From IMG/VR virus record IMGVR_UViG_3300030098_002895, positions 1 to 24,950 of that record: DNA of 24,950 nucleotides, one strand, 5' to 3'. The notes below the pieces were generated by a model that did no database searches, was not told the origin of the DNA, and saw only the letters and a list, made by a program, of their open reading frames with translations. The DNA is from a virus. Position numbers and translations under genes: made by a program. Positions 2,443 to 23,095 of this stretch are shown here, in pieces (positions within the stretch are counted from its first letter, which is position 1; every line of letters starts with the position of its first letter).

Positions 2443-5400
2443 ATGGCTCAATTCCAACCAAGATGGGATGAACAAACTGTACGAAGACTAGTATCTAGTT
2501 ATAAAGATAACCCGCAGAGATTTCCCGAAACATATAAACAAAATTTAAGACAGCATACTGACTATTACAATGTGCCCTTTTATGAGGGTGAGTTTAGTAT
2601 TGCAGATGCACTTACTGACTTTGGTGCTGGCTTTATAGAAGGATTTACCACACTACATATAGGCGATGAACCTGACAATGAATATGAAGCTATATTTAAA
2701 AATCTAGGTCATTTAGCTGGTTTTGCTCCTGGTATTATATCTGCTCCTCTAGGAGCTGTTCAAAAAGTTACTAAATCCACTTCACTGTTAACTGCTGCAA
2801 ATGTAGCACGTAGTCTTAATGATAAATCTGTCCCTATGGCAGCTGCAAAGATTGCTACTAAGTTTGCTAAAGATAATGTAAAACCTTTCCTAAAACAAGG
2901 CAGAATGGCAAAAAATAGTGCTGTTAATACTGCATCTAACTTTCTTATGGGAGATAGAGCAAGGCATATTGCTGAAGGCGCATTTCATTTAGGGGCAGCA
3001 TCTGCTGTTTCTGCATGGCAAGGTGGTGTAGATGAGATGATGGCAGCTTTTATTGGAGGTGCTCAAGCTGGTGGTGTATTTAGGGGAATAGGTAACTTTA
3101 TTAATACTGGTAGCGAAGCTGGTACTAAAGTAGCTAAAACTGTAGCTGGTTCATTATTTATGGGTCTGCCTGCAACTATGAGAGGAGCTACAACCCCAGA
3201 ACAAGTATATGAGTATGTTATGGGTGCTTGGTTTGGAGGACAAGAAAGACCTTGGACTGTAGCTAAAGCAGGAAAGTTTGTACAGAAATTTGAAAAAGAT
3301 TCTCAAAAGAAAGAAAATGAAGCGTTACGTATATTAAAAGACCCAGAGATACATCCAGACTTTAAAGAACTTCCATCTGAAGTAAAACCTGTAGTTAAGG
3401 AAATGTTCCAACAAAGATATAATCAAGAAAATCTTGAGATAAGTGCTGCCGCTGCTAAGTATATGGCAGAAAAAGGTAATATTGACTTAGATGCTCTAAA
3501 TAAAGAAATAATAAATATAAGAAAGGCCCGTGAAGCTGAGCTAGAGCAACAACGCCCTACAGAAGAAAAAGTTCCCGAAAAAGATTTAGAAAAAACAAGT
3601 ATAGATACTCCCAAGGAAATTACAGTAGAGATTCCTGAGGGCACTCCTACAGACCCTGCTATTCCTCCAACTACACAAATTATTGATAATGTTGCATATA
3701 AATTCCCAAGAGGAGTTGGATTTAGAAAAGAATTATTACCTCAAAAAGCTCAAGATACTTTAAACAGAAGAGATAGGGAAATGGACTTACTTGCTGAAGA
3801 AAAAGCTGCAAGTCAAGAATTAGACTTAGCTGAAAAAAAGAAAGATAAGAAAGCAATAGCTAAAGCAAAAAAACGGTTTGACGAAATATCTAAAAAACAA
3901 AAAGAACTAAAAGCAGAAGAAGAAGCTGCTAAGAAAGAAGTTCCCGAATTATCTTTAGAAAAAACAAATGTTAAAAAGATTATATCTGGTGGTCAAATTG
4001 GAGCCGACCAATTTGGATTAGAAGTTGGGAAAGAATTAGGAATAGAAACAGGAGGAACTGCCCCTCCTAAATTTCAAACTACAAAAGGTTCTCAAAAAGA
4101 AATATTAGAAGGATATGGATTAGTAGAAGGAGAATCTGACCCTGCAATATATGTTAAAAGAACTATAAAAAATGTAAAAGATTCAGATGGTACTGTATTA
4201 TTTGGAGATGAAAAATCTAGAGGTTCTGCATTAACTATTAAAGCTGCAATGAATAATGGAAAACATATAATTGTAAATCCAACATCAAAACAATTAACTG
4301 AATGGATATCTAAAAATAATATTGAAATATTAAATGTTGCTGGTAATAGGAATATTGCTGCAGATAAAGTCAAACCCATATTAACTGAAGCTTTAAGCAA
4401 AGTAAGCACTTTTGATGTTGTAAGTGCTAAAAAAACAACAAAAAAGGAAGATATAAATCTTGGTAGCACTAATGAAGATAATGTTGGCGTTGCTCCTATA
4501 TCAGACCCTGAAGTTGGAAGAAAAGCTTATAATATAGTTCGATATGATATGCCAGACCTATTTAAAGAAATGGCTCCTGCTGAAAAGCAAATTGCTAGAG
4601 AAGGCGCTGTTAATAAAATAGGTGCTATTATTGATAAATATTTAACTAAAAATACAGGTATATTAACTAACAAGTCATCTGTAGCAGTCACTAAGATTAA
4701 AGAGATGCTTAAAAAAGATTATAATTATGTTATTAAAAATACACCTAAAGACCCCGAAAGAGTAGACAGATTTGAAGGAAATCTTAGGCAATGGTTAGGA
4801 CGTTTTAATAATGATGAAGTTGTAGACGTACTAACTTACGATGGCAATACATTAAAAAAACTTACTAAGAAGAATCCAAAGAACGCAGCTGGAAATAAAA
4901 AGATATTAGAGGAACCTTATAAGATAGTTGATAATATATGGGAGAATCTGACAGGGAAAAAAGAAAGAGCTTTTGTATATCTAGATAACATTACTATTGA
5001 TACTAAAGATGGTAAACGAGAAATTACTCCTAAGAAATTAAAAGATAGTGAATACGCTGATTATGGTGGTGAAAAAGATTACTATGATATGGTATCAGAT
5101 GTTATTAAAAAAATGGATAAGCAAGGATATAATTATTCAGGAGGCAAGGGTACTAATGATAGACTCTACTTTAGAAAATACCACCCAAATACAAAGAATG
5201 TTAAAAATCGTGATATTTTAAAAAACTTTAAGCCATCTGATATTAGAGCTTTAAGAAGAGATTTTATTAAGAAGTTTAAGGCTCCTGGGGCTTTATTTGA
5301 CAAATCGTTTAAATCTAACTTGCTATGGCAGCTTGAAATTAATGGATTAGAATATACACCAGAAAATGTAAAAAAGATGCTTGGTGATGGATTTATTGGC

Positions 5401-8400
5401 AACGCTATAGCTTTAAATAAAAGACTCCCTTTAATTATGACAGATTCTTATCCTGCGGAAAAAGAGTTTTTTAAGAATTATAAAGACCCAGATACGGGAG
5501 AAGGCCTGGGGCTTACTAAGGATGGTAATTTTAAATTTTATATTAAGCCAGACTTTTACCAAGATAGAAGCAAAAAGTTCCAAGATAAAAAGAAAGAGGA
5601 AGCAAAATTTTCAGATATTAAAAGCACGGAAACAGAAGAAAATCTTGATGGTGCTATAATAGGTAGAGATGACGTTGTTAATGCATTAAATGCAGAGAAA
5701 GGTACTCCAGAGTCTAGACATAATAAATCTTTAGTCGTTATGCCTGACTCTAACGATGGAGGGCTATTTTTAAAATATGCTATACATAAGGCAGGACCTG
5801 CGGAATCTAAGATAATGAAAGATGCTGGCCTGCATTTTGAAGTATATGATAGTGCAGCAAAACAAAAGGGTACTAGAAAGTTTTATGAAGAATATGAATT
5901 AGACCCTAAATATATTAGGCAAGACTATGGAATCAAACAGAGTAAAAAGTTTATTGAGCCTCAATCATTAAAAAAACAAATGGTAACAAATCTTGTTGAA
6001 TCTTTAGCGGCTAACCCAAAGCTTAAAGATGGTACAACAATGAATGAGGTTGTTGAAGACATCTATAATACGTTGACTCTGCCTAAATTTGAAGGAGTAG
6101 CAGAAACGAATAAAGCCTTTAGATTGTATCAAGAAAAACTAAAGACAGCATCTAATAAGGAATTAGCCGCAGAGTTAGATAAATTAAATTTTGAAGAGAT
6201 AGGTATTACAGAGCTTGTAGATGGATTAAAGCTACCTGGAAATCAATTATTTGCAAAGAAATTTTATAATCATTTATTATTAAAGCGTAAAGAATCTTTA
6301 TTAGCAGAATTTGAAGATGGTGAAATAGGGCCTGAAACTTATAAGACAGCAACTCAAGAAATAGAAGACTTTAATACTGTTGCTGAAAAAATGATTGCAG
6401 CGTCTAGAAGAGATGCTATTAAAAGAAAAAAACCTGAAAATGAATTAAATATATTCTTACATCCTGATTTAAATAAATTTAGAATGAAAGTGCTTTCGAG
6501 TTGGATAATTAATCAAGCAACTAGACCTAAAGTAAAAAATTCAGCATCAGCTATTATCAGACCTTATGATTTTAGTTTGCAAACAAATGCGGATGGTGTG
6601 AATCCTAAGCTAAAAGAATTAAATACAAATAAAGAGTTATTTTTCGTTGGAGATGAATTTAAACGAATGCCTATAGAGACAGAAGCTTATGGAAGAACCA
6701 CTTTAAATGAGCTGTGGAAAATATCTCAAAGAAAGAATACTCCTAAAAATATTAAAGAAGATATTAAAGAAATTCTTAGGGCAGCTATTATTAGAGTTCC
6801 ATCTGATTCTAATTCAGGTACTCAAGTATTAGAATTTGCTGGTTTTACAGGCAGAAAAGATTATGGAGTACTAATGCATGGCTTGGTTAAAAGAGCCTTA
6901 GGTGGTGCTGACCATGATATTGATTCTGCCTATTTGTATTTTGGTGGTAAAGGTGGCTTTAAAAAAAGCTGGAAAGATATGTTCAAAGCCCAAGCAGAAG
7001 AATTTTATGAAAAACAACCTGATGGAAGATTTAAAATAGCAGACAATAAAGCTAAAGAATTTGAAAAGAAATTAATAGAAGAATATTCTGCAAATGAAGA
7101 TGCTCTATTTAAAAGTAAAGCTGGTATGTTTGCTCCTAATACATTAATGCAAGCAGCCGAAGGTGCTACAGAAGGTAGAGGACTCCTTGGTGGGGCAGCA
7201 GTAAATCCTAAGAATATCTTGGCATCTGCCTATGAAATGATTATGCAAAAAGGTAAAGATGAATTTACCATGAAGCACTTTGGAAAAGACGTAAAAGTTA
7301 CTCTTACTCCTAAAACCAAACCTCAAGAAAAACAATATATTAATAAATTAATGCGTGCTACTGTTGGATTTGCCTCAGATGCTATGGATTATGGTAAACC
7401 AAAAGGTTATGAAAGCTGGTATAAACAGGCATTAGATGCACATTTTAATATTACAACAGATAAAAAGATTTATAATTTCTTAAATAAAGTTAATTTAAAC
7501 CAATTTATCAAAGAAGGTGTTATAGGCAAGATAAATAATGCTAATAAAGCTTATTACAGCAAAGATTATACTCGTGGCAGGCAATGGACAATGGAAGAGC
7601 GTCGCAATATGACTAAAGATTTATATCTTGAGCCTAGCGAAAATGTAAAAACAATTACTCCTAGAATTGCTAGATTGCTTTATAATATTGATTATTCTGA
7701 CAATATTCTTAATAGAATAGATGCTAAGAAAATGACAGACCTTTTTAAGATTTACAATGAAAATGTTTCTCAGTATAAGTCTCTTAAAGACCCTCTAGGA
7801 AGAGTAACTTTTAAGGCTATTACAGGAAAGCACATTAATAGGACTTTAACAAACGAACTTACTGACCCAGATAAATTAATTGAAGTTGCTGAAAACGATG
7901 CAAAGTTTCAAAAAATTATTGAAGGTACTAACTATGAATTTAAAAAGAAGAAAGTAAAAGGAAAATGGGTTAATACTAAAGTCAAAAAAGAATATAATAA
8001 AGATGAACGTATAGCTCTTCTTAATAAATTTAAAGAAGAAGCTGCAGATTATGCTGGTAGAGATATGCAAACTCTAGTAACTGTGAAATTAGCATCTGAC
8101 ATTATAAAAGATATGAAAAAACGATATCCTAACTTGACAGATGCTCAATTAAATCAAGTTATTGAAAATGCATCTAAAGCAGTTAGTAAACTAAAATTTA
8201 ATAATTATTTGCTTAGGGAAAACAGAAATAAGCAAGATGAAGATTTAAAAACTCAAAATCAAGTTAAGAGTAAAGGTACTGCCGCTTTAGACCAAAATGA
8301 AGTTGATTTACAAATAAGAGAATGGAAGCAAAATAAAACTGAATTAGAAAAAGATTTATTTGATGTTTTAATGCTTGGTTCTTTAAACAGAGGTAACTTA

Positions 8401-11400
8401 AAAAAGATTAACGAGTTAAGGTCAATTGAGAATCCTACTGATGCAGAAAAATTAACATTAAGTGAAGAGTTACAAAAAGCATCTAAAACATCTTCTTCTA
8501 TGCTTGGATATAATAGTGAAGCTGTTAATCCTAAGAATTTAGAAAGATTCCTAGGGGAGATAAATGATAAGTTTTCTGAAGTTGCCCAAACTAGAACAGC
8601 TGAAGAAAATAAAATTATAAATAAGTCTATTACTGAAGAACCTCAAAAACAAGAAAACATTGAAAAAGGCTGGCCTGAAGATAAAGGCAAAGATGCAAAT
8701 GCTTTAGAAGAAGTATTTACAACGGGTTGGGAAGGCGTTAAAAAAGCTAAGAAAATAAAGCTTGATAGCGATACTAAATCTTATATTGATGATATATTAC
8801 TTCAATTAAAGACAGAACCTAATCATGTTATGCAAAATATTGGTTTTATAGCTCGTAAGGTTATTGGCAAAGATATTAATATATTTAATAAGCAGGATTG
8901 GTTCCAGTTTCGTAATTGGTTGCAAGATATTAAAAATGGAACTTTATGGCAAAGATTAAAAAGTGAAGATTTTACAAAAGTATCTCAGCGTACTTATTTA
9001 CAATTTCCCGAAACAATTAATAGAGAGCTAATGAGGGATGAGATTACAGTAATGCAAGAAAATGGTATTTTCTTAACTGCTGAAGGTACTAAAGCTGGAA
9101 GAGTAATTAAACCTACTCAGCATATGGATATACTCCAAACAGATATTGGAAATATATCAGGAGTAGTTGATGGAATAAATGATAAGCTTTCATTGGAACG
9201 AGCAAAAACTTGGGAGTTTTTAGACGGATTTAAAGATGGTACAAAGCTATGGGAAGTTGCTTGGGTTACAAGGGAACTTCCAAATGCTAATAGATTAATT
9301 GAAAAAGCCGATGGTAAAGAATTAAAATTAGCTCATATACATGCTAAAACATATAAAGACAATTATAAAAAGATTCTTGAGAAACATAATTATGAGTCTG
9401 ACTTAAAAAATAAAGAATACATAGTTACTATTGAAGGTAACCGTAAAACATTAACTGGTAAAGAATTAGTAGATTATATTAATAAAAAAGAAACAGAATA
9501 TTATAAAGAAAGAGGTCTTTTTGCTAGAGGCGATGTACCTTTAACTAAAAATGGTGATTTGATGCCTTTGTTAAATGATAAGGGAGAAATTTTAACAAAA
9601 AACGGTCAAATTATGTATGCACTTCAGAAATCTTTAGAATTTGGTATTCCAGGATTTACTAGTGGGCCCAAGAATAGTGGGTATTTAATTACAAAAACAA
9701 AACCTAACAGTAAATTAGCTAAAGAATTTCCTACTGGATATTATGACCCCAAAACTAGACAGAATCCAGTAATCGACATTCCTAAATTTGTAAATGATAT
9801 GAAGAAAAATGTTGCTTTTGGAAAGCCTATACCTGAGCAATTTGGAATTGATGGTATTAATTCCGTAGGTCGTAGTGCAATGTATGAAATGGCTCGACAC
9901 GGAATGAATAGTAAAGAAAAAGTAAAAATGTATAATACTATGCAAGCTCGTACTGGTAGAATTAAAGAAGAAATGTATACTCCTCATTCTCATTTTAATA
10001 AAAAAACAGCATTAAAATCTTTAGAAGATTATGCTAATTATTTGAGCAAACAAGACATTCCATTAAAAGAGCAAGAAGCTATTATTAAATCATTAGCTTA
10101 TAGGCATAATGCATTAGCAGGTGATTTTATGTTTGAAGAAATAAATCATTGGGAAGGGTTTAATGCAGCAATTTCTAAGATTGCCAAATCTAAAGAAAAA
10201 AATGAAAATCGTATCAACTGGTTAAAAAGTATTGGTAGGTCTGGTAGTCAATTTAGTAGAACTGGGCATATGCCTGGATATTCTTTATCAAGAGAAGTGC
10301 CATTAAGTTATGGAAAAAGCTTTAATAATATTTACTATAGGCAGCTATCTCAAATATTTAGTCGAGACACAATAAGCAAATTTGAAAAATCGATGTTTGA
10401 TAGAAAAGTTCCAACAGATGTGGCAGAAGCTTGGTCTAATTTTGCAAAATTATATGTACAAGGAGCTATTGGAAATCCAGATGTAGTCCCAGAATATATT
10501 TACAATGACCCTAAAATGAAAATTAAAGGAACTCCTTATGGATGGTGGGCTGATAATAGGGTGAGAGATAGATTAAATAAAATTGGAGACAAATTAGGCC
10601 TTATTAAAGAAAAAGAAAATCTTCCAGAGAATATGAGAGGATTAGATTTAAATGATATAAAAAGATGGAGCAACCTTGAAGCAAAATTTGAATTAGCCTC
10701 ATTGTTAGCTCATCCTAAATCTATGGTTGCTAATATTTTTGGTGGTACAATGCATACTGTTCAATCTGTAGGATTTAATACATGGAAAAATGCTCGTAAT
10801 GATAAATATATGTCTACTATTAACCCAGATTTTGGAACAAAAGAACAACGAAATCAATTTGCGATTAAACATGGTATACTCCCTGAACAATTAATTGAAG
10901 AATATGGATTAAATAGAGGATATCAATCTGCCAAAAATAAAGAATTTATTGAAACTGTTGCTCGTAAGATGAGAAGAGACCCCGAAGTTTCTAGTGAATC
11001 TATTAGAGAGTTAGCTAAAGAGCAAGGTATAGGTAGAAAAGTTACTGAATTTGCTGCTAAGTTTATGTCTGTCCCTGAAAAAGCATTAAGGCGTGATGCT
11101 TTTATGGCTCATTATTTACATTGGTATAATAAATTTGGTGGAACAATAAAGAATTTTAACCATCCTGTATTAATTGAATTAGCTAAAAAAGGTGTAAAGG
11201 CTACTCAGTTTTTATATTCAGCACCATTTAGACCTATGTTCGCAAGAACTGCCTTGGGTAAGGTTATGACTCGTTTCCAATTATGGGGATGGAATGCAGT
11301 TAAATTTAGAAAAGAAGCTTTAAAAGAAGCTCGACAATATGGATTTAAAGGAGCAGAAGCTGATAAATTTGCCAGAATGATGCAACTGGATTTATTTGTC

Positions 11401-11841
11401 TTTGCTCTAGGTAATGCTTTTGCTTATTCATTATTTGACACAGCAATGCCAGCTCCTTATAATTGGTTCCAAGATACTAGTGAATGGATATTTGGAGATG
11501 AAAAAGAAAGGAATAGAGCTTTCTTTGGGCAATGGCCTAGAGCTGTAGCTCCCTTACAGATGATTACACCTCCTATATTAAGATTGCCAATGGCTTCAAT
11601 GAGAGCTATACTTGAAGATGATTGGGAAAGAATATCTAATTACTATATACATACTATGTATCCATTTGGTAGGATTTCAAGGGATTTCGTTGGACCTAAT
11701 AATTTAATCGAAAATCCTTTAAGTGCTGTTGATAAATGGACTGGATTTCCTTTACTAGGATTGAGTAAAGCTTCTAAGGATTTGCGTAAAGGTAAGGAAA
11801 GAACAGTCCCAACACCTGGGTCGGGACTATCTCCTTTCTAA
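2443..11841 (+). CDS. Giant virion-associated polyvalent protein with YpsA-like SLOG domain and RNA-polymerase-like motif
   Basis: A single 3132-residue frame of 9.4 kb. Visible parts in order: an Ala/Gly-rich hydrophobic region (about 60-300) of a type seen in giant phage proteins; charged coiled coils (about 330-505); a YpsA-like SLOG domain (about 511-665) with ISGGQIGAD near residue 514, an ETGGTAPP stretch, DSDGTVLF, and EILNVAGNRN near its end; a long Lys/Asp-rich body; a segment near residues 1450-1500 with Arg-x-Pro and then D1490-x-D1492-x-D1494, recalling the active-site loop of two-barrel RNA polymerases; and a C-terminus (about 2915-3010) with a TQFLYSAPFRP stretch and a hydrophobic helix, like domains at the ends of polyvalent proteins. 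Polyvalent proteins are packaged and injected to protect or take over. A packaged polymerase is the main alternative. The start lacks a clear ribosome binding site, so coupling is likely. Confidence 0.8.
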   Translation: MAQFQPRWDEQTVRRLVSSYKDNPQRFPETYKQNLRQHTDYYNVPFYEGEFSIADALTDFGAGFIEGFTTLHIGDEPDNEYEAIFKNLGHLAGFAPGIISAPLGAVQKVTKSTSLLTAANVARSLNDKSVPMAAAKIATKFAKDNVKPFLKQGRMAKNSAVNTASNFLMGDRARHIAEGAFHLGAASAVSAWQGGVDEMMAAFIGGAQAGGVFRGIGNFINTGSEAGTKVAKTVAGSLFMGLPATMRGATTPEQVYEYVMGAWFGGQERPWTVAKAGKFVQKFEKDSQKKENEALRILKDPEIHPDFKELPSEVKPVVKEMFQQRYNQENLEISAAAAKYMAEKGNIDLDALNKEIINIRKAREAELEQQRPTEEKVPEKDLEKTSIDTPKEITVEIPEGTPTDPAIPPTTQIIDNVAYKFPRGVGFRKELLPQKAQDTLNRRDREMDLLAEEKAASQELDLAEKKKDKKAIAKAKKRFDEISKKQKELKAEEEAAKKEVPELSLEKTNVKKIISGGQIGADQFGLEVGKELGIETGGTAPPKFQTTKGSQKEILEGYGLVEGESDPAIYVKRTIKNVKDSDGTVLFGDEKSRGSALTIKAAMNNGKHIIVNPTSKQLTEWISKNNIEILNVAGNRNIAADKVKPILTEALSKVSTFDVVSAKKTTKKEDINLGSTNEDNVGVAPISDPEVGRKAYNIVRYDMPDLFKEMAPAEKQIAREGAVNKIGAIIDKYLTKNTGILTNKSSVAVTKIKEMLKKDYNYVIKNTPKDPERVDRFEGNLRQWLGRFNNDEVVDVLTYDGNTLKKLTKKNPKNAAGNKKILEEPYKIVDNIWENLTGKKERAFVYLDNITIDTKDGKREITPKKLKDSEYADYGGEKDYYDMVSDVIKKMDKQGYNYSGGKGTNDRLYFRKYHPNTKNVKNRDILKNFKPSDIRALRRDFIKKFKAPGALFDKSFKSNLLWQLEINGLEYTPENVKKMLGDGFIGNAIALNKRLPLIMTDSYPAEKEFFKNYKDPDTGEGLGLTKDGNFKFYIKPDFYQDRSKKFQDKKKEEAKFSDIKSTETEENLDGAIIGRDDVVNALNAEKGTPESRHNKSLVVMPDSNDGGLFLKYAIHKAGPAESKIMKDAGLHFEVYDSAAKQKGTRKFYEEYELDPKYIRQDYGIKQSKKFIEPQSLKKQMVTNLVESLAANPKLKDGTTMNEVVEDIYNTLTLPKFEGVAETNKAFRLYQEKLKTASNKELAAELDKLNFEEIGITELVDGLKLPGNQLFAKKFYNHLLLKRKESLLAEFEDGEIGPETYKTATQEIEDFNTVAEKMIAASRRDAIKRKKPENELNIFLHPDLNKFRMKVLSSWIINQATRPKVKNSASAIIRPYDFSLQTNADGVNPKLKELNTNKELFFVGDEFKRMPIETEAYGRTTLNELWKISQRKNTPKNIKEDIKEILRAAIIRVPSDSNSGTQVLEFAGFTGRKDYGVLMHGLVKRALGGADHDIDSAYLYFGGKGGFKKSWKDMFKAQAEEFYEKQPDGRFKIADNKAKEFEKKLIEEYSANEDALFKSKAGMFAPNTLMQAAEGATEGRGLLGGAAVNPKNILASAYEMIMQKGKDEFTMKHFGKDVKVTLTPKTKPQEKQYINKLMRATVGFASDAMDYGKPKGYESWYKQALDAHFNITTDKKIYNFLNKVNLNQFIKEGVIGKINNANKAYYSKDYTRGRQWTMEERRNMTKDLYLEPSENVKTITPRIARLLYNIDYSDNILNRIDAKKMTDLFKIYNENVSQYKSLKDPLGRVTFKAITGKHINRTLTNELTDPDKLIEVAENDAKFQKIIEGTNYEFKKKKVKGKWVNTKVKKEYNKDERIALLNKFKEEAADYAGRDMQTLVTVKLASDIIKDMKKRYPNLTDAQLNQVIENASKAVSKLKFNNYLLRENRNKQDEDLKTQNQVKSKGTAALDQNEVDLQIREWKQNKTELEKDLFDVLMLGSLNRGNLKKINELRSIENPTDAEKLTLSEELQKASKTSSSMLGYNSEAVNPKNLERFLGEINDKFSEVAQTRTAEENKIINKSITEEPQKQENIEKGWPEDKGKDANALEEVFTTGWEGVKKAKKIKLDSDTKSYIDDILLQLKTEPNHVMQNIGFIARKVIGKDINIFNKQDWFQFRNWLQDIKNGTLWQRLKSEDFTKVSQRTYLQFPETINRELMRDEITVMQENGIFLTAEGTKAGRVIKPTQHMDILQTDIGNISGVVDGINDKLSLERAKTWEFLDGFKDGTKLWEVAWVTRELPNANRLIEKADGKELKLAHIHAKTYKDNYKKILEKHNYESDLKNKEYIVTIEGNRKTLTGKELVDYINKKETEYYKERGLFARGDVPLTKNGDLMPLLNDKGEILTKNGQIMYALQKSLEFGIPGFTSGPKNSGYLITKTKPNSKLAKEFPTGYYDPKTRQNPVIDIPKFVNDMKKNVAFGKPIPEQFGIDGINSVGRSAMYEMARHGMNSKEKVKMYNTMQARTGRIKEEMYTPHSHFNKKTALKSLEDYANYLSKQDIPLKEQEAIIKSLAYRHNALAGDFMFEEINHWEGFNAAISKIAKSKEKNENRINWLKSIGRSGSQFSRTGHMPGYSLSREVPLSYGKSFNNIYYRQLSQIFSRDTISKFEKSMFDRKVPTDVAEAWSNFAKLYVQGAIGNPDVVPEYIYNDPKMKIKGTPYGWWADNRVRDRLNKIGDKLGLIKEKENLPENMRGLDLNDIKRWSNLEAKFELASLLAHPKSMVANIFGGTMHTVQSVGFNTWKNARNDKYMSTINPDFGTKEQRNQFAIKHGILPEQLIEEYGLNRGYQSAKNKEFIETVARKMRRDPEVSSESIRELAKEQGIGRKVTEFAAKFMSVPEKALRRDAFMAHYLHWYNKFGGTIKNFNHPVLIELAKKGVKATQFLYSAPFRPMFARTALGKVMTRFQLWGWNAVKFRKEALKEARQYGFKGAEADKFARMMQLDLFVFALGNAFAYSLFDTAMPAPYNWFQDTSEWIFGDEKERNRAFFGQWPRAVAPLQMITPPILRLPMASMRAILEDDWERISNYYIHTMYPFGRISRDFVGPNNLIENPLSAVDKWTGFPLLGLSKASKDLRKGKERTVPTPGSGLSPF
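3976..4437 (+). other. YpsA-like SLOG (putative molybdenum carrier) domain inside the giant protein
   Basis: Residues about 512-665 of the giant protein follow the order of conserved blocks of the cpYpsA / putative molybdenum carrier family. These are a first-strand SGGQxGAD loop, a GGTAPPKF segment, a Tyr-x-x-Arg-Thr stretch, NVKDSDGTVLFG, a small-residue SRGSALT loop, a GKHIIVNP strand and a final ILNVAGNR block. Family members bind nucleotides or nucleotide-derived ligands in a Rossmann-like fold. The ligand here is unknown. Coiled-coil linkers flank the domain on the N-terminal side, so it looks like a self-contained module. Confidence 0.75.
11805..11828. terminator. Candidate bidirectional hairpin at the convergent gene junction
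   Basis: AGTCCC at 11805-11810 and GGGACT at 11823-11828 form a perfect 6-bp stem around a 12-base loop, inside the last codons of the giant gene. On the + strand it is followed by a T/C-rich run that includes the stop at 11839-11841. The - strand operon ends at 11842, so one hairpin could serve both directions. There is no clean U-tract, so the call is tentative. Confidence 0.3.
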
Positions 11842-16002: not shown

Positions 16003-16186
16003 GCCATTCTAATTTGTTCCTATATACTAGAGCTATATTTAATTCAATTTTATATATTCCTAGTATTAGGACAGATGCTCTGCCTAACATTTCATCGCTC
16101 CAATGAATACCTATTCTAAATAGTTTAAAAAACTCTATCATAGATATATCATCTTCTATTATTACAGTTGCTAAAAAACCTTTCAT
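15971..16186 (-). CDS. Small hypothetical protein
   Basis: A 71-residue protein with GGAG about 7 bases before its ATG, which overlaps the stop of the primase-helicase gene by one base (TAATG). It has alternating hydrophobic segments (FLATVIIEDD near the start, RASVLILGIY in the middle) that suggest a small alpha/beta fold. No family is recognised. It is most likely co-translated with the primase-helicase, and its last 32 bases overlap the start of the HNH gene. Confidence 0.5.
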   Translation of the reverse strand: MKGFLATVIIEDDISMIEFFKLFRIGIHWSDEMLGRASVLILGIYKIELNIALVYRNKLEWHDFGKETGQA

Positions 16187-17952
16187 TAAATTCTCCTTAA
16201 TCTAAAGCTTTCACGCCATTCTACATCTACATCAAATAGTTCTCCATCTGTGTTTTTATACATATGTATTTGTTTAGTATTACTATTTGCCTGGCCATTT
16301 AAACCTATCACTTTACGTGATGCATTTTCTATGGCTCCTGAGCCTTTACCTGCATACAAATCAAGTATATCATTTCTGCTATATTCTCTACTGACTTGAG
16401 AGATTTGAATTATTATGACGTCTAAATTAACTGCCAAATTAGATAAGTTATGAGATATGTATTTAATTTGTTCATACTCTCCTTTAACATCTCTAGGCGT
16501 TTCTACGAGGTCTATATAATCCACTATAACTACTGATGGATTTAGTTCTTTGATTTTATCTTTAATTGATGATAATGTTGGAGATATTGTTTGTATTTGC
16601 AAATGTCTTAATTCATCTGCATAATCTTTATATATCTCTTTGTAGCTTTCATTAACATCTTCTTTGGATAATCCAGAAACTATTTGTAAATGCCTTCTAT
16701 GCATATACCAAGCTGATAATTCTAGAGATAAGAATAATGTTGGTATTTGCCAGTCTCTATTGATTCTGTCATTTTTAAAGTCTACACCCAGGGCTAAGTT
16801 TTGAGCTAATGTTGTTTTATTAGAACCTGTAGGTCCAAATATTGTAACAAGCTCACCTGGATATATTTGTGTATCATATTCAGTTAAACCAAACATTTGA
16901 GCTAAAGGAATAGTTCTTCCATGAAAGTTAGTTGTTAACCTTTCTTCAAATTCCTTTTGCAGTTCATCTGAATCCTTTACTTGAATATGATAGTTTTTAT
17001 TTTTAAAGTACATACATTTTGTTTGACAATACTGTTTCATAAGCGCATCTTGACAGCCGTAATTATAATTACCATTATAAACCGATTCTGTTTTTTGTAT
17101 TATTTTATTCTCATCCATAGTATTGTTATTCCAGTGTAGCAATGATACTTTTGCATATTCACTGGGTATGCCGTGCCTTTTAAAATGACTTGCTATTCTC
17201 AGGGCTGTATTATGCCTAGAGCCTTCTATAGGCCCATTTCTTAACATTGTTTGAACACAAGGTACTACCTTGGTTGGTTCCATAACTTTACCAAATTCAA
17301 CTACTTTTGGTGTTTCCAAACAGACAGACTCTTCTAGTTCTCCGTCTCCATCTAATAATTCATATGGATATTCAAGTCTTTGGTCTGATGCTAATTTATG
17401 GATTTCTTGAACACTAGCATTATGAGCTTCTTCTAATGTAATAGGTATCTTATAAAGACCAGTTTTCTGGTTCTTAGTATGAGCTACTCTATATATTCCA
17501 CTTCTCATATATATACTAGTATCAATTCCTTCAAACAATTTTGACATAGTTTGTTTTACCTGATAGGGCAAGCTACCAGAAGGTTGGAAGTTAAATACTT
17601 TATTTGATATTGATACATGATATCCAGTACCACTAAAATAACATTGAATACTTTCATCAAGTACTTCAAATACATTTAGCTGCTGGAGGAGTTGTCTTAA
17701 CTTAGCTAAAGTGTACTCGTCAGAGTTATCTTTTTTATCAATATCAATAAGTACATTATCTATACTTCTTACCCCCTGATAGCCTTTCATAGAGCCCTTA
17801 GAGTCTGCAAATTGCTTTGCATCCTCTTCATAGAGATAAACAGAGCGATATAAAGCTGTTCCATCCTTAGGTATATAATTACCTAATTCAGACTTTAACA
17901 CCAGAGTTCCCCTGTTCATAGGGGAACCCACTGCTATCTCTACGTATATCAC
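16186..17952 (-). CDS. Primase-helicase: AEP-type primase fused to a RecA/DnaB-like helicase
   Basis: A 588-residue protein. The N-terminal half shows archaeo-eukaryotic primase signs: LIDID with D70 and D72 for metal, SGTGYH at 107-112, and an arginine-bearing SGIYRVAH block near 151-158. A Cys-rich segment follows (C300, C309, C313), of the kind that ends AEP primases and may bind zinc or an iron-sulfur cluster. The C-terminal half is a replicative helicase motor with Walker A GPTGSNKT at 373-380, a FLSLEL segment near 407-412, Walker B VVIVD at 474-478, and a QISQVSRE block near 516-523. It should unwind the fork and lay primers. I accept the GTG at 17952, whose GTGA overlaps the upstream stop. 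It follows the ssDNA-binding and Sak4-like genes, forming a replication operon. Confidence 0.85.
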   Translation of the reverse strand: MIYVEIAVGSPMNRGTLVLKSELGNYIPKDGTALYRSVYLYEEDAKQFADSKGSMKGYQGVRSIDNVLIDIDKKDNSDEYTLAKLRQLLQQLNVFEVLDESIQCYFSGTGYHVSISNKVFNFQPSGSLPYQVKQTMSKLFEGIDTSIYMRSGIYRVAHTKNQKTGLYKIPITLEEAHNASVQEIHKLASDQRLEYPYELLDGDGELEESVCLETPKVVEFGKVMEPTKVVPCVQTMLRNGPIEGSRHNTALRIASHFKRHGIPSEYAKVSLLHWNNNTMDENKIIQKTESVYNGNYNYGCQDALMKQYCQTKCMYFKNKNYHIQVKDSDELQKEFEERLTTNFHGRTIPLAQMFGLTEYDTQIYPGELVTIFGPTGSNKTTLAQNLALGVDFKNDRINRDWQIPTLFLSLELSAWYMHRRHLQIVSGLSKEDVNESYKEIYKDYADELRHLQIQTISPTLSSIKDKIKELNPSVVIVDYIDLVETPRDVKGEYEQIKYISHNLSNLAVNLDVIIIQISQVSREYSRNDILDLYAGKGSGAIENASRKVIGLNGQANSNTKQIHMYKNTDGELFDVDVEWRESFRLRRI

Positions 17953-19282: not shown

Positions 19283-19954
19283 TCAGGCTGGAAAGCAAGT
19301 ACTTTTTTCTAGTGACATAGTAGGGAAATTGAATGACAATTCCCTCTCATATGGACTTGATGTTAATACTTTTCTGATAGCATTTACGATGAATGCACCT
19401 GCCATATTAGAACAATATGTTGTTGCTTTAATATTGCATGGTTCAGGGTCTCCATCTTCATCAGAATACCAAGTTTTCATGTATTTAGCTTTAGTCAAAT
19501 CAGTAAATACATATTGCTGGTAATGTTCTCCACCCATTCTGCCATCTATTAACATAAATGGCTTTTGTTGCTTGTCGTAGCAAATATCTTCTACAGCTTC
19601 TCTACGAGATTTCATACTATCAAATCCTAAGATGACTATATCTTGATTGTTCTGATATCTAAATACATCATACTTTTCATTGAACATCATGATATCTGCC
19701 TCTTTATTAATTGATAATAAGTAATTACCAAGTGCAGTTACTTTAGGTTTTCCTATATGTTCTTCTACATATTGTGAAACTCCTAAGTTTTCAGTAGCCA
19801 CTATATCCATATCATATAGCAAGAAATTTGTTGCTCCAGCTCTTACTAATTGACTGGCTGCAGAGCTACCAATAGCTCCGCAACCTAATATGTGATAAGT
19901 AAACTCATGAAGATTATTTACTAGTCCTGAACTTCTTATATTAATACCATCCAT
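19283..19954 (-). CDS. E1-like / ThiF-family adenylating enzyme
   Basis: I use the ATG at 19954 (223 residues) because GGAGGG lies 7 bases before it. An in-frame ATG at 19969 would add five residues. The protein has a ThiF/E1 Rossmann ATP site: GCGAIG at residues 24-29, D48-x-D50, NL at 56-57 and K69 in a GKPKVTAL segment. A GFD...R block at about 110-117 follows, then Cys residues at 173 (EPC) and 181 (TTYC), one of which may be the thioester-forming cysteine. The usual NLxRQ is changed to NLGVSQ, so the Arg is missing at that place. Family members adenylate the C-terminal Gly of a ubiquitin-like protein. It overlaps the JAB gene by 14 bases, with its ribosome binding site inside that gene's last codons. 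Confidence 0.88.
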   Translation of the reverse strand: MDGINIRSSGLVNNLHEFTYHILGCGAIGSSAASQLVRAGATNFLLYDMDIVATENLGVSQYVEEHIGKPKVTALGNYLLSINKEADIMMFNEKYDVFRYQNNQDIVILGFDSMKSRREAVEDICYDKQQKPFMLIDGRMGGEHYQQYVFTDLTKAKYMKTWYSDEDGDPEPCNIKATTYCSNMAGAFIVNAIRKVLTSSPYERELSFNFPTMSLEKSTCFPA

Positions 19955-20921
19955 GTCCATACCCTCCATATAATGTATTATCTATTGTTGTCAATGCATC
20001 ATCATACACTTTTTGAACTTTTTCTGATTCGTACTTTATATGGTCGTGTGGAAACAAAGTAGATGTAGCTTCTAATAACTCACCTTGTTTTATTTTCTCT
20101 ACATTCATTTTTGCATCTTTTTCTTTGAGCCTGGAATTGATAGCTTTAATAAATTCAGAATACGCTTTGTAGTCTTTTTTACCACTAGCATAATCATCCA
20201 TCATTTCTTCTACTTCATCAATAACAAATTGAAATACTTCTACATACGATTGTGCATTATCATTTTTATTCCACTTTAATACATTATCATCTGCTAAAGG
20301 GTCATCTTTAGGTGCATTCCATATACCAACTTGATTAGTCTGTCTAAACTTACTAGTCCAGCATTTGTTATTGATAGGCATTACTACAGGGGAAGGACTT
20401 GAACAAAGCTCATCATACTCTTTGAGTTGTTTTTTAGTGGGTTCAGCGATTTTTCTGATGATTTCTAATGGAACATCTTCACTATGTTCAATCGGTTCCC
20501 ACGTAGAAACATTTAATACATAGTCTCCAAATAGATTGATGACTAGAGCTAATGACCAAGAATCATTTTTCCAAGCTTTGATTTCGTTTAAATCAGTGCC
20601 TGACCAAAATGCAGCCATAGTATGATGTGAGTGCCACCAGCAAAATCTTACATCTCCGTGTTTCATTCCTGCTTTGACATAATAATCTCTTAGTGCATCT
20701 CCATCTAACTCTGTAGTTGTTCCAGTATTCTGCTGTTTTAGTATTACTGGTTCAAATATTTCCCACACCATCTTTCCGCTTACAGGATGTGGTACTCTTT
20801 TTACACAAGTAATACCAGATATTTCGTTTTTGTCTTTATCATAAGCTATTCTAGCATATTGTTGCATTGTATTCCATGCTTTTTCACTAATAATAAAGTT
20901 TCTTTTTATGTCTTTAGACAT
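19941..20921 (-). CDS. JAB/JAMM-family metalloprotease (deubiquitinase-like)
   Basis: A 326-residue protein whose first 130 residues are a JAB/MPN domain with every catalytic element: E33 in NEISGI, and H97-S-H99-x7-S107-x-x-D110, an exact HxHx7SxxD zinc motif. Such enzymes cut isopeptide or peptide bonds after the Gly-Gly of ubiquitin-like proteins. The C-terminal 190 residues have no recognised domain and include a helical, acidic stretch (about 220-290) that could bind substrate or partners. AAAGGAG 6 bases before the ATG fixes the start, which follows the E2-like stop by 12 bases. The likely tasks are trimming the four-residue tail from the Ubl and removing Ubl from targets. A role only in maturation is also possible. 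Confidence 0.92.
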   Translation of the reverse strand: MSKDIKRNFIISEKAWNTMQQYARIAYDKDKNEISGITCVKRVPHPVSGKMVWEIFEPVILKQQNTGTTTELDGDALRDYYVKAGMKHGDVRFCWWHSHHTMAAFWSGTDLNEIKAWKNDSWSLALVINLFGDYVLNVSTWEPIEHSEDVPLEIIRKIAEPTKKQLKEYDELCSSPSPVVMPINNKCWTSKFRQTNQVGIWNAPKDDPLADDNVLKWNKNDNAQSYVEVFQFVIDEVEEMMDDYASGKKDYKAYSEFIKAINSRLKEKDAKMNVEKIKQGELLEATSTLFPHDHIKYESEKVQKVYDDALTTIDNTLYGGYGHGWY

Positions 20922-20933
20922 ATTTTCTCCTTT

Positions 20934-22607
20934 CTATTGACTAGGGTTATTTACGTTTATAGTCCAACTTGCAACCATTCTTTCCATATCACTTTCTTCA
21001 CTTGCTTCTGGGGTACTTTCTTCCCAGTAATTAATATCAAGCAATGTATCTTCTATGGATACGAATTTGTGATTTCCTATTACATATGAATATAACCTAC
21101 CTGAATATTCAGCTCGTAAATCAGTTGGATTGTTTAAGGTTGTAGTGATTCTTTTGTTAAGATTGTATTCTGATATGTATCCAATATATGATTCTATCAT
21201 ATAATTCAAATCAGGACATTCTTTATAAGATTCAACAAAAGAAATGTAATTATTACATTCTTTTCTCAATGGACATTTCTTTTGGTCACATTCATTGATA
21301 GTTAATTGTCCATAATCATATAAGTTTTTACCTACATAATTAAGACTATTATTAACTTCTCTTAGAAAGATTGAGTCTTCTGCCATTGCATGTTTATCTA
21401 TGTTTTGTTTAAAACAAGCATTTTTATTAAAACCTAAAACTGTTTTAATAGTTTGAAGTTCACTTTCTGTTTTATCTGAAGGTATACCAGAATCGTATAA
21501 AACCTTAGAAGGTGTATTATGTGGGTTGGTTCTGTCATTATTATAGATACTATTCCAAGCACTAAGTCCCATTACAAGTGATATATAATCGTGATTTGTG
21601 ATAGGTTGTATTATATCATCTTGAAATGAAGACAAACAAACACTGCTTGTCCAAGGAATATTAGTTAGCTTTTGATATGAATGATTATTATCTTGACTTG
21701 TTAAGTCATAATATCTATTTGATGCAATGTATGGATGATAACCATCAACAACACATCCATTCATTTTTACGTTCCCACGTGTACTTTTACCTAATAGAAA
21801 CTTACTAAAATCTCTTTGAAATACTATATAACAAAGAGGTGTTTTAAGTTTTTCTATTATTTCATTATCGTTATTTACAATATTCATTGTATTCGGATTT
21901 ACTTGAACAACTGTAAATAACTTAAGATTTAGAAATCCATTAAATGGTGGTTCGTAATCACAAAACTGCCAATTAACTCCATGATAAATATGAAAATTAT
22001 CTGTCATTTGATTAGCTTCTTTAGTAGATTCATATAATTTTTGTATTTCATTATTCTGAACTTCAATTAATTCATCTACATTGTCGACTACTTTACCTAC
22101 ATTCCGTTTAGCTTCCATTCTTAAACCATCTAGATTATTTATAGCTGTATGAAGGTTTGTAATACTCCTCTTACCATCATGTATACGATTAAAGAAATGA
22201 GTTAACCCAGAGTTACGCTTCTTAAAACCATTAAGAAATGAAACATATTCTTTTAACGTATCATATATTCCTGGATTCCAATCAAAATTAATCTTGGTTC
22301 CAAAAGTATAGTCAGTAGAAGTATTCATTGCTATAGATTCTCCCCAATACTGGTTAAATCTTTCTAAATTTTCATTGAATTTTCTAACATATTCTAATGA
22401 AGTGATTTTAGCAAATTCTTCTGAATCTACCATTGCCATAAAAGTATCTATATCACAAAGTTCTACATTATTTACTTTTGTATAACCATTATGATATTCC
22501 ATCCAATTCTTTAGAGTAACACTTGAATCTGTCTTTTCTAAAGGTATTTGAGAATACTTTTCTAGTAACGGATTTCTTTTGCTTATTGCATTTATACTTA
22601 ATTGCAT
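20934..22607 (-). CDS. Large E2-like (ubiquitin-conjugating-enzyme-like) protein with Cys cluster
   Basis: A 557-residue protein with an N-terminal helical part (residues 1-205, including a predicted coiled coil near 160-205). A central region at about 205-365 resembles an E2 fold: beta-rich strands, then G289-Y-H291-P292-Y, then a 31-residue insertion, then SVC324L, and a helix followed by an NPHN stretch. Classical E2 enzymes have HPN, a short loop, the catalytic Cys followed by Leu, and a final NP-rich turn, in this order. C324 is therefore the predicted thioester cysteine. A C-terminal cluster, C440-x4-C445-x5-C451-x12-C464, may bind metal. CAGGAG precedes the ATG by 6 bases; the stop is TAG, followed at once by the JAB ribosome binding site. 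The E2 call is motif-based and the protein is far longer than an E2 core. Confidence 0.65.
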   Translation of the reverse strand: MQLSINAISKRNPLLEKYSQIPLEKTDSSVTLKNWMEYHNGYTKVNNVELCDIDTFMAMVDSEEFAKITSLEYVRKFNENLERFNQYWGESIAMNTSTDYTFGTKINFDWNPGIYDTLKEYVSFLNGFKKRNSGLTHFFNRIHDGKRSITNLHTAINNLDGLRMEAKRNVGKVVDNVDELIEVQNNEIQKLYESTKEANQMTDNFHIYHGVNWQFCDYEPPFNGFLNLKLFTVVQVNPNTMNIVNNDNEIIEKLKTPLCYIVFQRDFSKFLLGKSTRGNVKMNGCVVDGYHPYIASNRYYDLTSQDNNHSYQKLTNIPWTSSVCLSSFQDDIIQPITNHDYISLVMGLSAWNSIYNNDRTNPHNTPSKVLYDSGIPSDKTESELQTIKTVLGFNKNACFKQNIDKHAMAEDSIFLREVNNSLNYVGKNLYDYGQLTINECDQKKCPLRKECNNYISFVESYKECPDLNYMIESYIGYISEYNLNKRITTTLNNPTDLRAEYSGRLYSYVIGNHKFVSIEDTLLDINYWEESTPEASEESDMERMVASWTINVNNPSQ

Positions 22608-22624
22608 AATTTCTCCTGTCTAAT

Positions 22625-22800
22625 ATTAATGGGGACTCACATATTCCTTTGCCTAGTTTAACGACCTTTTAGTACATCTAGCATAACTAGAAAATCATCA
22701 CTGTTGTCATCAGGAGTAGGACTTATTTTCTCTGTGAGTTTACTTGTATATAAAATACAGTGGCACTTGCACAGAAGGACCAGTTGTTGTCCCCATTAAT
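22625..22800. repeat. 12-bp perfect inverted repeat bounding the spacer between Ubl and E2 genes
   Basis: ATTAATGGGGAC at 22625-22636 and GTCCCCATTAAT at 22789-22800 are perfect inverted copies 152 bases apart. A second, inner pair ACTCACA/TGTGAGT (22635-22641 with 22733-22739) competes with or extends the outer one. The enclosed DNA carries no complete gene. On the - strand transcript this would form a long closed stem around a branched loop just before the ribosome binding site of the E2-like gene. Confidence 0.7.
22658..22796 (-). pseudogene. Possible small gene broken by a +1 shift in the Ubl-E2 spacer
   Basis: From an ATG at 22796 a frame reads 18 codons to TAA (MGTTTGPSVQVPLYFIYK). Skipping one T at AAG-TAA enters a frame that stays open for 26 more codons to the TAA at 22658-22660 (starting KLTEKISPTP and ending LVMLDVLKGR). 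Joined, this would be a 45-residue protein of ordinary composition. There is no good ribosome binding site; the only GAGGT lies in a hairpin about 14 bases upstream. It may be a decayed gene, a programmed frameshift, or chance. Confidence 0.25.
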
Positions 22801-22806
22801 TACTAT

Positions 22807-22827
22807 TAGACCTCATTATTAGGTCTA
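22807..22827 (-). terminator. Hairpin just after the ubiquitin-like gene
   Basis: TAGACCT at 22807-22813 pairs with AGGTCTA at 22821-22827, a 7-bp stem with a 7-base loop one base past the stop codon of the Ubl gene. The following - strand sequence is AT-rich but lacks a clear U-tract. It could partly stop transcription and so set the Ubl in excess over the downstream enzymes. Confidence 0.4.
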
Positions 22828-22828
22828 T

Positions 22829-23095
22829 TTACTTATTTATAACGCCTCCAGTCTTGTTATTAGACTGCCAACCAACAAATAATGGCTTGATACTACCATC
22901 ATCGTTAGTTTCATTCATAGGCATTGCTGCCGTGTTATCTGTGTATAGAGTATCACTAATATTAACCTGTACTTCATTAGGTATGTCTAGCTCTACTCGT
23001 AACTCTCCAATAGTATTAACTACTACTGTTTTTGATGTCCAGCCTCCGTTTTCATAAACTTTAAGCTGTCTTGGTGTTGTTTCTTGGTTTGCCAT
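22829..23095 (-). CDS. Predicted ubiquitin-like (beta-grasp) modifier with Gly-Gly and a cleavable tail
   Basis: I choose the ATG at 23095, which has AAAGGAG 9 bases upstream, giving 88 residues; an ATG at 23161 would give 110. The pattern fits a beta-grasp fold: a first strand (RQLKVYENGG), a TVVVNTIGELR turn-strand, LDIPNEVQVNIS as the next strand, a loop, and a final LFVGW strand. The chain ends NNKTGGVINK, that is Gly83-Gly84 plus four residues. A Gly-Gly with a short extension is how precursors of ubiquitin-like proteins end, the tail being removed by a protease. It lies upstream of E2-, JAB- and E1-like genes on the same strand, which makes the modifier role likely. Sequence identity to known Ubls is not obvious, so the fold needs confirmation. 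Confidence 0.7.
   Translation of the reverse strand: MANQETTPRQLKVYENGGWTSKTVVVNTIGELRVELDIPNEVQVNISDTLYTDNTAAMPMNETNDDGSIKPLFVGWQSNNKTGGVINK

Follow-up and report, generated by a model that had tools for sequence, protein, structure and literature searches.

The window analyzed here, the whole of the 24,950-base IMG/VR virus record IMGVR_UViG_3300030098_002895 (a virus of bacteria), carries four co-oriented genes that we consider, with good confidence, to encode a reversible ubiquitin-like protein-conjugation cascade of the phage itself. The parts are a ubiquitin-like modifier (Ubl), an E2-like conjugating enzyme, a JAB/JAMM metalloprotease and an E1-like activating enzyme. An initial annotation made from the letters of the DNA had proposed such a set, and the four open reading frames (ORFs) all lie on the minus strand where it placed them; their identities are borne out by protein families, motifs, structural models and profile links. 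The genes of the set and two neighbors are as follows.

22829..23095, minus strand: Ubl, 88 amino acids, modeled beta-grasp ubiquitin-like modifier precursor with 4 residues past Gly-Gly
20934..22607, minus strand: E2-like conjugating enzyme, 557 amino acids
19941..20921, minus strand: JAB/JAMM metalloprotease, 326 amino acids
19283..19969, minus strand: E1-like Ubl-activating enzyme, ThiF-type, 228 amino acids
18533..19207, minus strand: Sak4-like AAA ATPase, directly downstream of E1 (context)
16186..17952, minus strand: DnaB-like primase-helicase (context)

A gap of 221 bp separates Ubl from E2, and the last three genes nearly touch or overlap, as had been described, with 12 bp between E2 and JAB and a 29-bp overlap of JAB and E1. 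AGGAG-type ribosome sites precede Ubl, E2 and JAB.

Active sites of the four proteins

Relatives were collected in two scans of viral contigs, the first with JAB (101 relatives, of which 80 were kept) and the second with the E1 profile (352 relatives). The window Ubl ends in N-N-K-T-G-G-V-I-N-K, with the Gly-Gly codons at 22844-22849 and Lys81 preceding them, and K81, G83 and G84 (Lys-x-Gly-Gly) are invariant in 40/40 non-redundant sets. The number of residues past the Gly-Gly varies from none to tens across sets, and 20 of the 36 second-set Ubls with K-x-G-G stop exactly at Gly-Gly; the variable tails are as in precursors that need trimming. Since small ORFs ending in Gly-Gly plus at most six residues are not rare on their own (64/1365 ORFs), the evidential weight rests on this conservation. 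The AlphaFold model of the Ubl, with a predicted local distance difference test score (pLDDT) of 79.5, consists of a beta-hairpin, a helix and further strands, the arrangement of a beta-grasp fold, and aligns with DIX domains, ISG15, ubiquitin and MoaD (VIA-align Z 6-7). The modeled beta-grasp fold is clear, yet not specific. Together with a C-terminal Gly-Gly that is exposed or can be exposed, it gives the window Ubl both hallmarks of a ubiquitin-like modifier, and the failure of the 88-residue protein to model as beta-grasp, named beforehand as grounds for abandoning the proposal, did not occur. Neither Ubl nor E2 had a match above noise in Pfam, NCBIfam or PHROGs, and sequence-profile searches of the PDB with the whole Ubl and E2 profiles returned chance matches only; WD40 matches to Ubl in the PDB profile search were rejected as repeat artefacts.

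The E2-like protein, as large as the initial annotation held, comprises a helical N-terminal part, a UBC-like domain at residues ~180-358 and a C-terminal CD-x3-C-x5-C motif. Its HPYI motif (residues 291-294, codons 21726-21737) is followed by Cys324 (21636-21638), and C324, P292, W351 and P362 are invariant over the 40 non-redundant sets. The AlphaFold model (pLDDT 83.8) has a four-strand meander, the HPYI and then Cys324 immediately before a helix; the rows aligned with residues ~180-358 are mostly E2s (UBE2F, UFC1, Ubc12, CDC34 and Cap2 of the cyclic-oligonucleotide-based antiphage signaling system, CBASS), and UBE2O aligns over a longer range. A UBC fold in which the catalytic Cys starts a helix after an HP motif is therefore present, at modest scores, and Pfam gave no match, to Prok-E2 or UQ_con included; we claim membership of this very diverged protein in the E2/UBC superfamily by fold and motif only. 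That the 557-residue protein might contain no UBC-like domain was a further preset ground for rejection, and such a domain was found. A C-x3-5-C-x5-C motif is present in 24 of the 40 window-group E2s, and one can speculate that it, like the Cys-rich tail of several cellular E2s, is a binding module. When the E2 model was compared with a viral structure library, six viral proteins matched strongly, followed by a 420-amino-acid protein (1.6e-3; equal in length to the candidate of Flavobacterium phage Fpv3) and, at rank 9, by a 435-amino-acid protein of crAss-like cr128_1 (E 0.29).

The catalytic residues of the JAB are Glu33 (20823-20825) and those within HSHHTMAAFWSGTD (20592-20633), which together read E33 + H97-S-H-x7-S107-x2-D110. 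As E33, H97, H99, S107 and D110 are invariant in 40/40 sets, the JAMM motif that had been read in this protein (Glu + H-x-H-x7-S-x2-D) is confirmed, and the window JAB has the attributes of a JAMM (JAB/MPN+) metalloprotease. Pfam Prok-JAB scores E 4e-4 and 20.7 bits, below its cut-off of 25; the nearest PDB match of the JAB profile is an archaeal Rpn11-like JAMM (4e-6). The E1 matches Pfam ThiF at E 7.7e-22 (78 bits against a cut-off of 28.1). It has the adenylation domain and ATP-site residues of the E1/ThiF superfamily, namely GxGxxG at 19868-19885 (GCGAIG), D53, N61, K76 and D117, the ATP-site residues being invariant, and its profile matches UBA5, MccB, ThiF and Cap2. Nearly all complete E1 relatives have 216-232 amino acids. 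Cys178 (19436-19438) is Cys in 35/35 aligned E1s of the window group, crAss-like phages, Flavobacterium phages and cells, and the column is not Cys in the ThiF and HesA rows; it is likely to be the thioester cysteine.

We observe four parts, conserved active-site residues, linkage, selection and near-constant presence; from what these families do, we infer the following chemistry. E1 would adenylate the C-terminal Gly-Gly of Ubl with ATP and then hold Ubl as a thioester, probably on Cys178. Ubl would next move to Cys324 of E2, which would attach it to amino groups of target proteins. E2's long flanks and Cys-motif tail may select the target, and no separate E3 gene was recognized with the cassette. 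JAB is predicted to trim the short tail after Gly-Gly that many precursors have, to remove conjugated Ubl from its targets, or both. Trypsin digestion of window-group conjugates would leave a short x-Gly-Gly remnant on target lysines, given the invariant Lys directly ahead of it.

Conservation of the cassette and its relatives

The order Ubl-E2-JAB-E1 on one strand was found in 50 of the 80 first-scan loci (48 plain, 1 with a split E1 and 1 with a split E2); of the others, 2 stop before E1 and most are truncated upstream. E1 lies beside JAB in all 80 kept loci except two that end inside or just past JAB. The second set added 39 distinct loci that extend far enough upstream, and in 37 of them the four genes occur in this order. 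The proposal was to fall if homologs were not kept together, and they are. Ratios of nonsynonymous to synonymous substitution rates (dN/dS) are below 1 in all pairs for all four genes, which are under purifying selection. Close pairs give dN/dS values of ~0.01-0.27 for E1 and ~0.13-0.34 for JAB; the range is ~0.06-0.36 for Ubl, once a single nearly identical pair is set aside, and ~0.15-0.67 for E2, the fastest evolving of the four.

The claimed phage setting holds as well. Downstream of E1 follow, in order, the Sak4-like AAA ATPase, a 194-amino-acid protein, the DnaB-like primase-helicase and an HNH gene; HNH and PD-(D/E)XK genes adjoin the cassette region, and in sister contig G012 the portal, terminase and capsid genes are grouped together on the strand opposite to the cassette. 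Of the 41 loci long enough to show it, 40 have a DnaB-like gene downstream of the cassette, and loci anchored on DnaB contain E1 in 29/29 cases with at least 5.5 kb upstream and in 52/54 with at least 2.6 kb. Against such constancy, the shorter loci L192 and L195 keep Sak4-p194-DnaB and have other genes at the cassette's usual place; because of these two, the cassette is near-core rather than required by every member. The genes in its place (L192:63-1377 and L195:3-1291) are a 265-amino-acid (or cut 202-amino-acid) ORF, DUF932-like by eye, and a 124-amino-acid ORF. The 104-kb record of locus L079 (G018) opens with an additional, partial E1 (C1:6-308); being about twice the usual 50-56 kb, it is possibly a concatenated assembly.

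More distant relatives occur in cultured phages. The E1 search found 80 phage records, among them Flavobacterium phages, jumbo phages of Xanthomonas and Erwinia, and crAss-like Steigviridae, the last including the cultured crAss001, DAC15, DAC17 and PhiCrAssBcn; JAB and E2 searches of INPHARED phages gave no match. crAss001 repeats the gene order with gp79 (Ubl-like), gp78 (YMHSHV..PCTG), gp77 (IHSHNNMATFFSGTD) and gp76 (ThiF); in crAss-like phages the set sits among primase, UDG, resolvase and exonuclease genes. The diverged sets of crAss001 (gp79-gp76), DAC17 and the Flavobacterium phages are annotated as 'thiamine biosynthesis' or hypothetical. By eye, gp79 has a beta-grasp-like start, followed by K-I-K-S-G-A and a long tail. 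Profile links are weak for window Ubl against crAss Ubl (P 0.001) and for crAss E2 against cellular E2 (P 0.0017, with HxH and Cys in register), and the direct comparison of window-group E2 with crAss E2 was not significant. The assignments of gp79 as Ubl and gp78 as E2 are consequently weaker than those of gp77 and gp76; they draw on gene order, on motifs and on the homology of the JAB and E1. In the E1 tree, the window group, the crAss and Flavobacterium group and the cellular group are separate, and Cap2, ThiF and HesA rows fall outside all three on long branches; the fork uniting the three groups is weakly supported (83/41).

Several of these phage loci have features of their own. In Flavobacterium phage Fpv1 (L132:3423-5715), the JAB gene is split immediately ahead of the codons for HSH in the JAMM motif by a ~1-kb insert, which matches a group I intron (RF00028, 2.2e-9) and has, on the opposite strand, an ORF with LAGLIDADG-like motifs; the JAB gene of Fpv3 is uninterrupted. 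In uncultured crAss-like phage cr106_1 (L115:1746-2949), ORFs of 92 and 130 codons flank a gene annotated as an HNH endonuclease; the 130-codon ORF resembles the C-terminal part of neighboring phages' Ubl-like protein, and the Ubl gene may have been split by a mobile element. Xanthomonas jumbo phage PhiXhv-15 (L122:3238-6612) encodes an 892-amino-acid protein with HPH..CLG and a very Cys-rich tail that adjoins a ThiF-type E1; a 141-amino-acid ORF ending in Gly-Gly lies upstream, and no JAB was recognized nearby. The long tails of four crAss-like Ubl-like proteins (L118, L116, L120 and L121) end in E-I-[DN]-x-M-F-x-[FE], which may be a short binding motif.

A cassette of the same order is present in cells. 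An E1 profile scan of genome contigs, made with two strict patterns only, gave no relative, and a JAB profile scan of bacterial and archaeal assemblies gave 12 loci (L082-L093, in metagenome-assembled genomes). JAB-E1 is found in 11/12 (L085 is cut inside JAB and has the upstream E2), an upstream E2 bearing HP[HY][IV]..C[LFW]G in 12/12, and further upstream a Ubl ending in Gly-Gly plus 0-2 residues in 9/12. The cellular Ubl matches SAMP2 (2e-10), polyubiquitin and Pfam ThiS, and in alignments of the cellular E2 domain with UBE2A and other E2s the Cys residues coincide. When profiles were compared, the window Ubl matched its cellular counterpart at P 4e-8 with the Gly-Gly aligned, and the window E2 matched the cellular E2 at P 5.4e-8 with both Cys and HP in register, or at 7.6e-7 when only the domain was used. 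The proteins are homologous; the cellular E2 differs in having HPH..C[LW]GN, textbook for an E2 in its HPH..CLGN form, and often a Cys-rich tail, and the cellular Ubl in being ThiS-like. Some of these contigs may themselves be mobile or viral; the JAB of a cellular cassette had no match in plasmids.

Several observations weigh against a conjugation cascade. His291 of E2 is replaced by Phe in 9/40 sets and by Tyr in 1/40. The E2 fold scores are low (Z 3.5-4.5), so that the assignment of E2 depends just as much on the profile links to cellular E2, whose domain in turn reaches UBE2A and the like only at E ~0.06. A Foldseek search of the PDB with the whole E2 model returned no E2, mainly TolC-like long-helix matches at E >0.5. 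The E1 has no separate Cys domain. Lastly, L046 and L047 carry E2-JAB-E1 with no recognized Ubl despite 6 kb of room, and L155 and L210 have JAB-E1 only.

Comparison with known systems

A review assigns BilA as the Ubl, BilB as E2, BilC as JAB and BilD as E1; BilA has two tandem Ubl domains, BilB a CEHH motif after the Cys, and BilD an inactive and an active adenylation domain plus a Cys domain of ~80 amino acids (PMC11354881). The window set shares the four roles as separate genes. The initial annotation was mistaken in setting it apart from Bil by gene order, which is identical if the Bil letters follow the operon (PMC11354881). It differs instead in its single-domain Ubl (88 amino acids) where BilA has two domains; in an E1 of 228 amino acids with one ThiF domain, whereas BilD has a double domain and a Cys domain; in an E2 whose HPYI precedes the Cys and which lacks a conserved Glu or His at +6, +8 or +13 after C324 (no CEHH); and in being phage-borne and near-core. 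Type II CBASS (Cap2/Cap3) likewise has E1- and E2-type activities and a JAB. The window set, however, has no E1-E2 fusion and has a separate Ubl gene, Cap2 falls outside in the E1 tree, and no CD-NTase or other nucleotidyltransferase was found among the window genes scanned.

PRTRC was the first candidate and was dropped, with PRTRC_ThiF at 23.5 bits against a cut-off of 144.75 and PRTRC_A at 13.7 bits against a cut-off of 101.8. PRTRC and operon type 6d (PMC1779556) resemble the window set in having separate Ubl, JAB, E1 and E2 genes; in the type 6d E2 the His is downstream, whereas in the window E2 it is upstream, as in eukaryotes. The JAB is nearest to Rpn11-like JAMM and the cellular Ubl to SAMP2, likenesses to the Caldiarchaeum ubiquitin operon and the archaeal SAMPs. 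The Caldiarchaeum operon is a known system for comparison, from which the window set differs in its phage setting and in that no RING-type E3 gene was recognized in it. The lambda tail proteins I (Ubl) and K (JAB+NlpC) also pair a phage-encoded Ubl with a JAB, but lack E1 and E2 and are part of a tail module.

Judged by the sequence features tested, the window set is neither Bil, nor type II CBASS, nor PRTRC; in outline, it would work like Bil and eukaryotic Ubl systems. Its general kind was already known, since Iyer et al. (2006) reported Ubl-JAB-E1-E2 operons in bacteria as well as the Ubl-JAB pair of lambda (PMC1779556). What appears new is a complete, phage-borne, near-core cascade, of which no earlier description was found in the papers searched; our literature searches, made among open-licence PMC papers, found no phage-encoded E1-E2-Ubl set.

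Possible roles in infection

Bacterial Ubl conjugation is known as an anti-phage weapon, and here the whole cascade is carried by the phage, kept almost throughout the group and placed beside replication genes. Our broadest reading, which we put just short of an even chance, is that a complete conjugation and deconjugation cascade is near-core equipment of the replication modules of large, unrelated phage groups, among them cultured crAss-like gut phages and a large uncultivated group, that its reversible tagging serves the phage's own DNA replication, and that the cellular cassettes sharing its gene order form its sister. If the cascade works, tagging proteins covalently would be part of the normal course of infection in large phage groups. 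Cultured crAss-like phages have the homologous block (crAss001 gp79-gp76), which opens the matter to tests in laboratory strains. Somewhat more tentatively, the targets may be phage or host proteins of DNA replication or recombination, the grounds being that at least two phage groups that differ in genome type have versions of the set within their replication modules; that this is gene neighborhood only counts against it. Superinfection exclusion, counter-defense and virion modification, the purposes first suggested, are guesses, and the location favors the replication module.

With the same chemistry, the Ubl could instead tag host defense proteins or those of rival phages, in counter-defense or superinfection exclusion. 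Bil is a bacterial Ubl conjugation system with a role in phage conflict. Ubl conjugation in CBASS also plays such a role (PMC10097602). That E2 changes faster than the other three (dN/dS up to ~0.67) would fit this alternative. Anti-defense genes are usually accessory and patchy, whereas this set is near-core and fixed beside DnaB (29/29 complete loci), and we regard the alternative as serious but unlikely. Decoration of the virion or control of its assembly by the Ubl, as proposed for the lambda I/K pair, is considerably less probable: Ubl and JAB are known in the tail modules of lambdoid phages (PMC1779556), but the cassette lies outside the structural block and in opposite orientation in sister contigs, and in crAss001 it sits among primase, UDG and exonuclease genes. 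Least probable of all is a sulfur-carrier pathway destined for a nucleotide, cofactor or metabolite, in which Ubl would be a ThiS/MoaD-like carrier, E1 would make the thiocarboxylate, JAB would trim and the E2-like protein would be an acceptor or sulfurtransferase. In its favor are the ThiF type and short length of the E1, the Pfam ThiS match of the cellular Ubl, and the known JAB + ThiS + ThiF pathways (PMC1779556). Against it, nearly all long-enough loci have the E2-like domain with its invariant Cys in UBC register, the conserved E1 cysteine is not found in true ThiF, and no rhodanese or sulfur gene was recognized among the window genes scanned.

Elsewhere in the window, positions 2443-11841 on the plus strand encode a protein of 3132 amino acids, whose residues 513-653 form a cpYpsA SLOG domain, and single ORFs of ~3000 amino acids are also present in sister contigs G012, G013 and G016.

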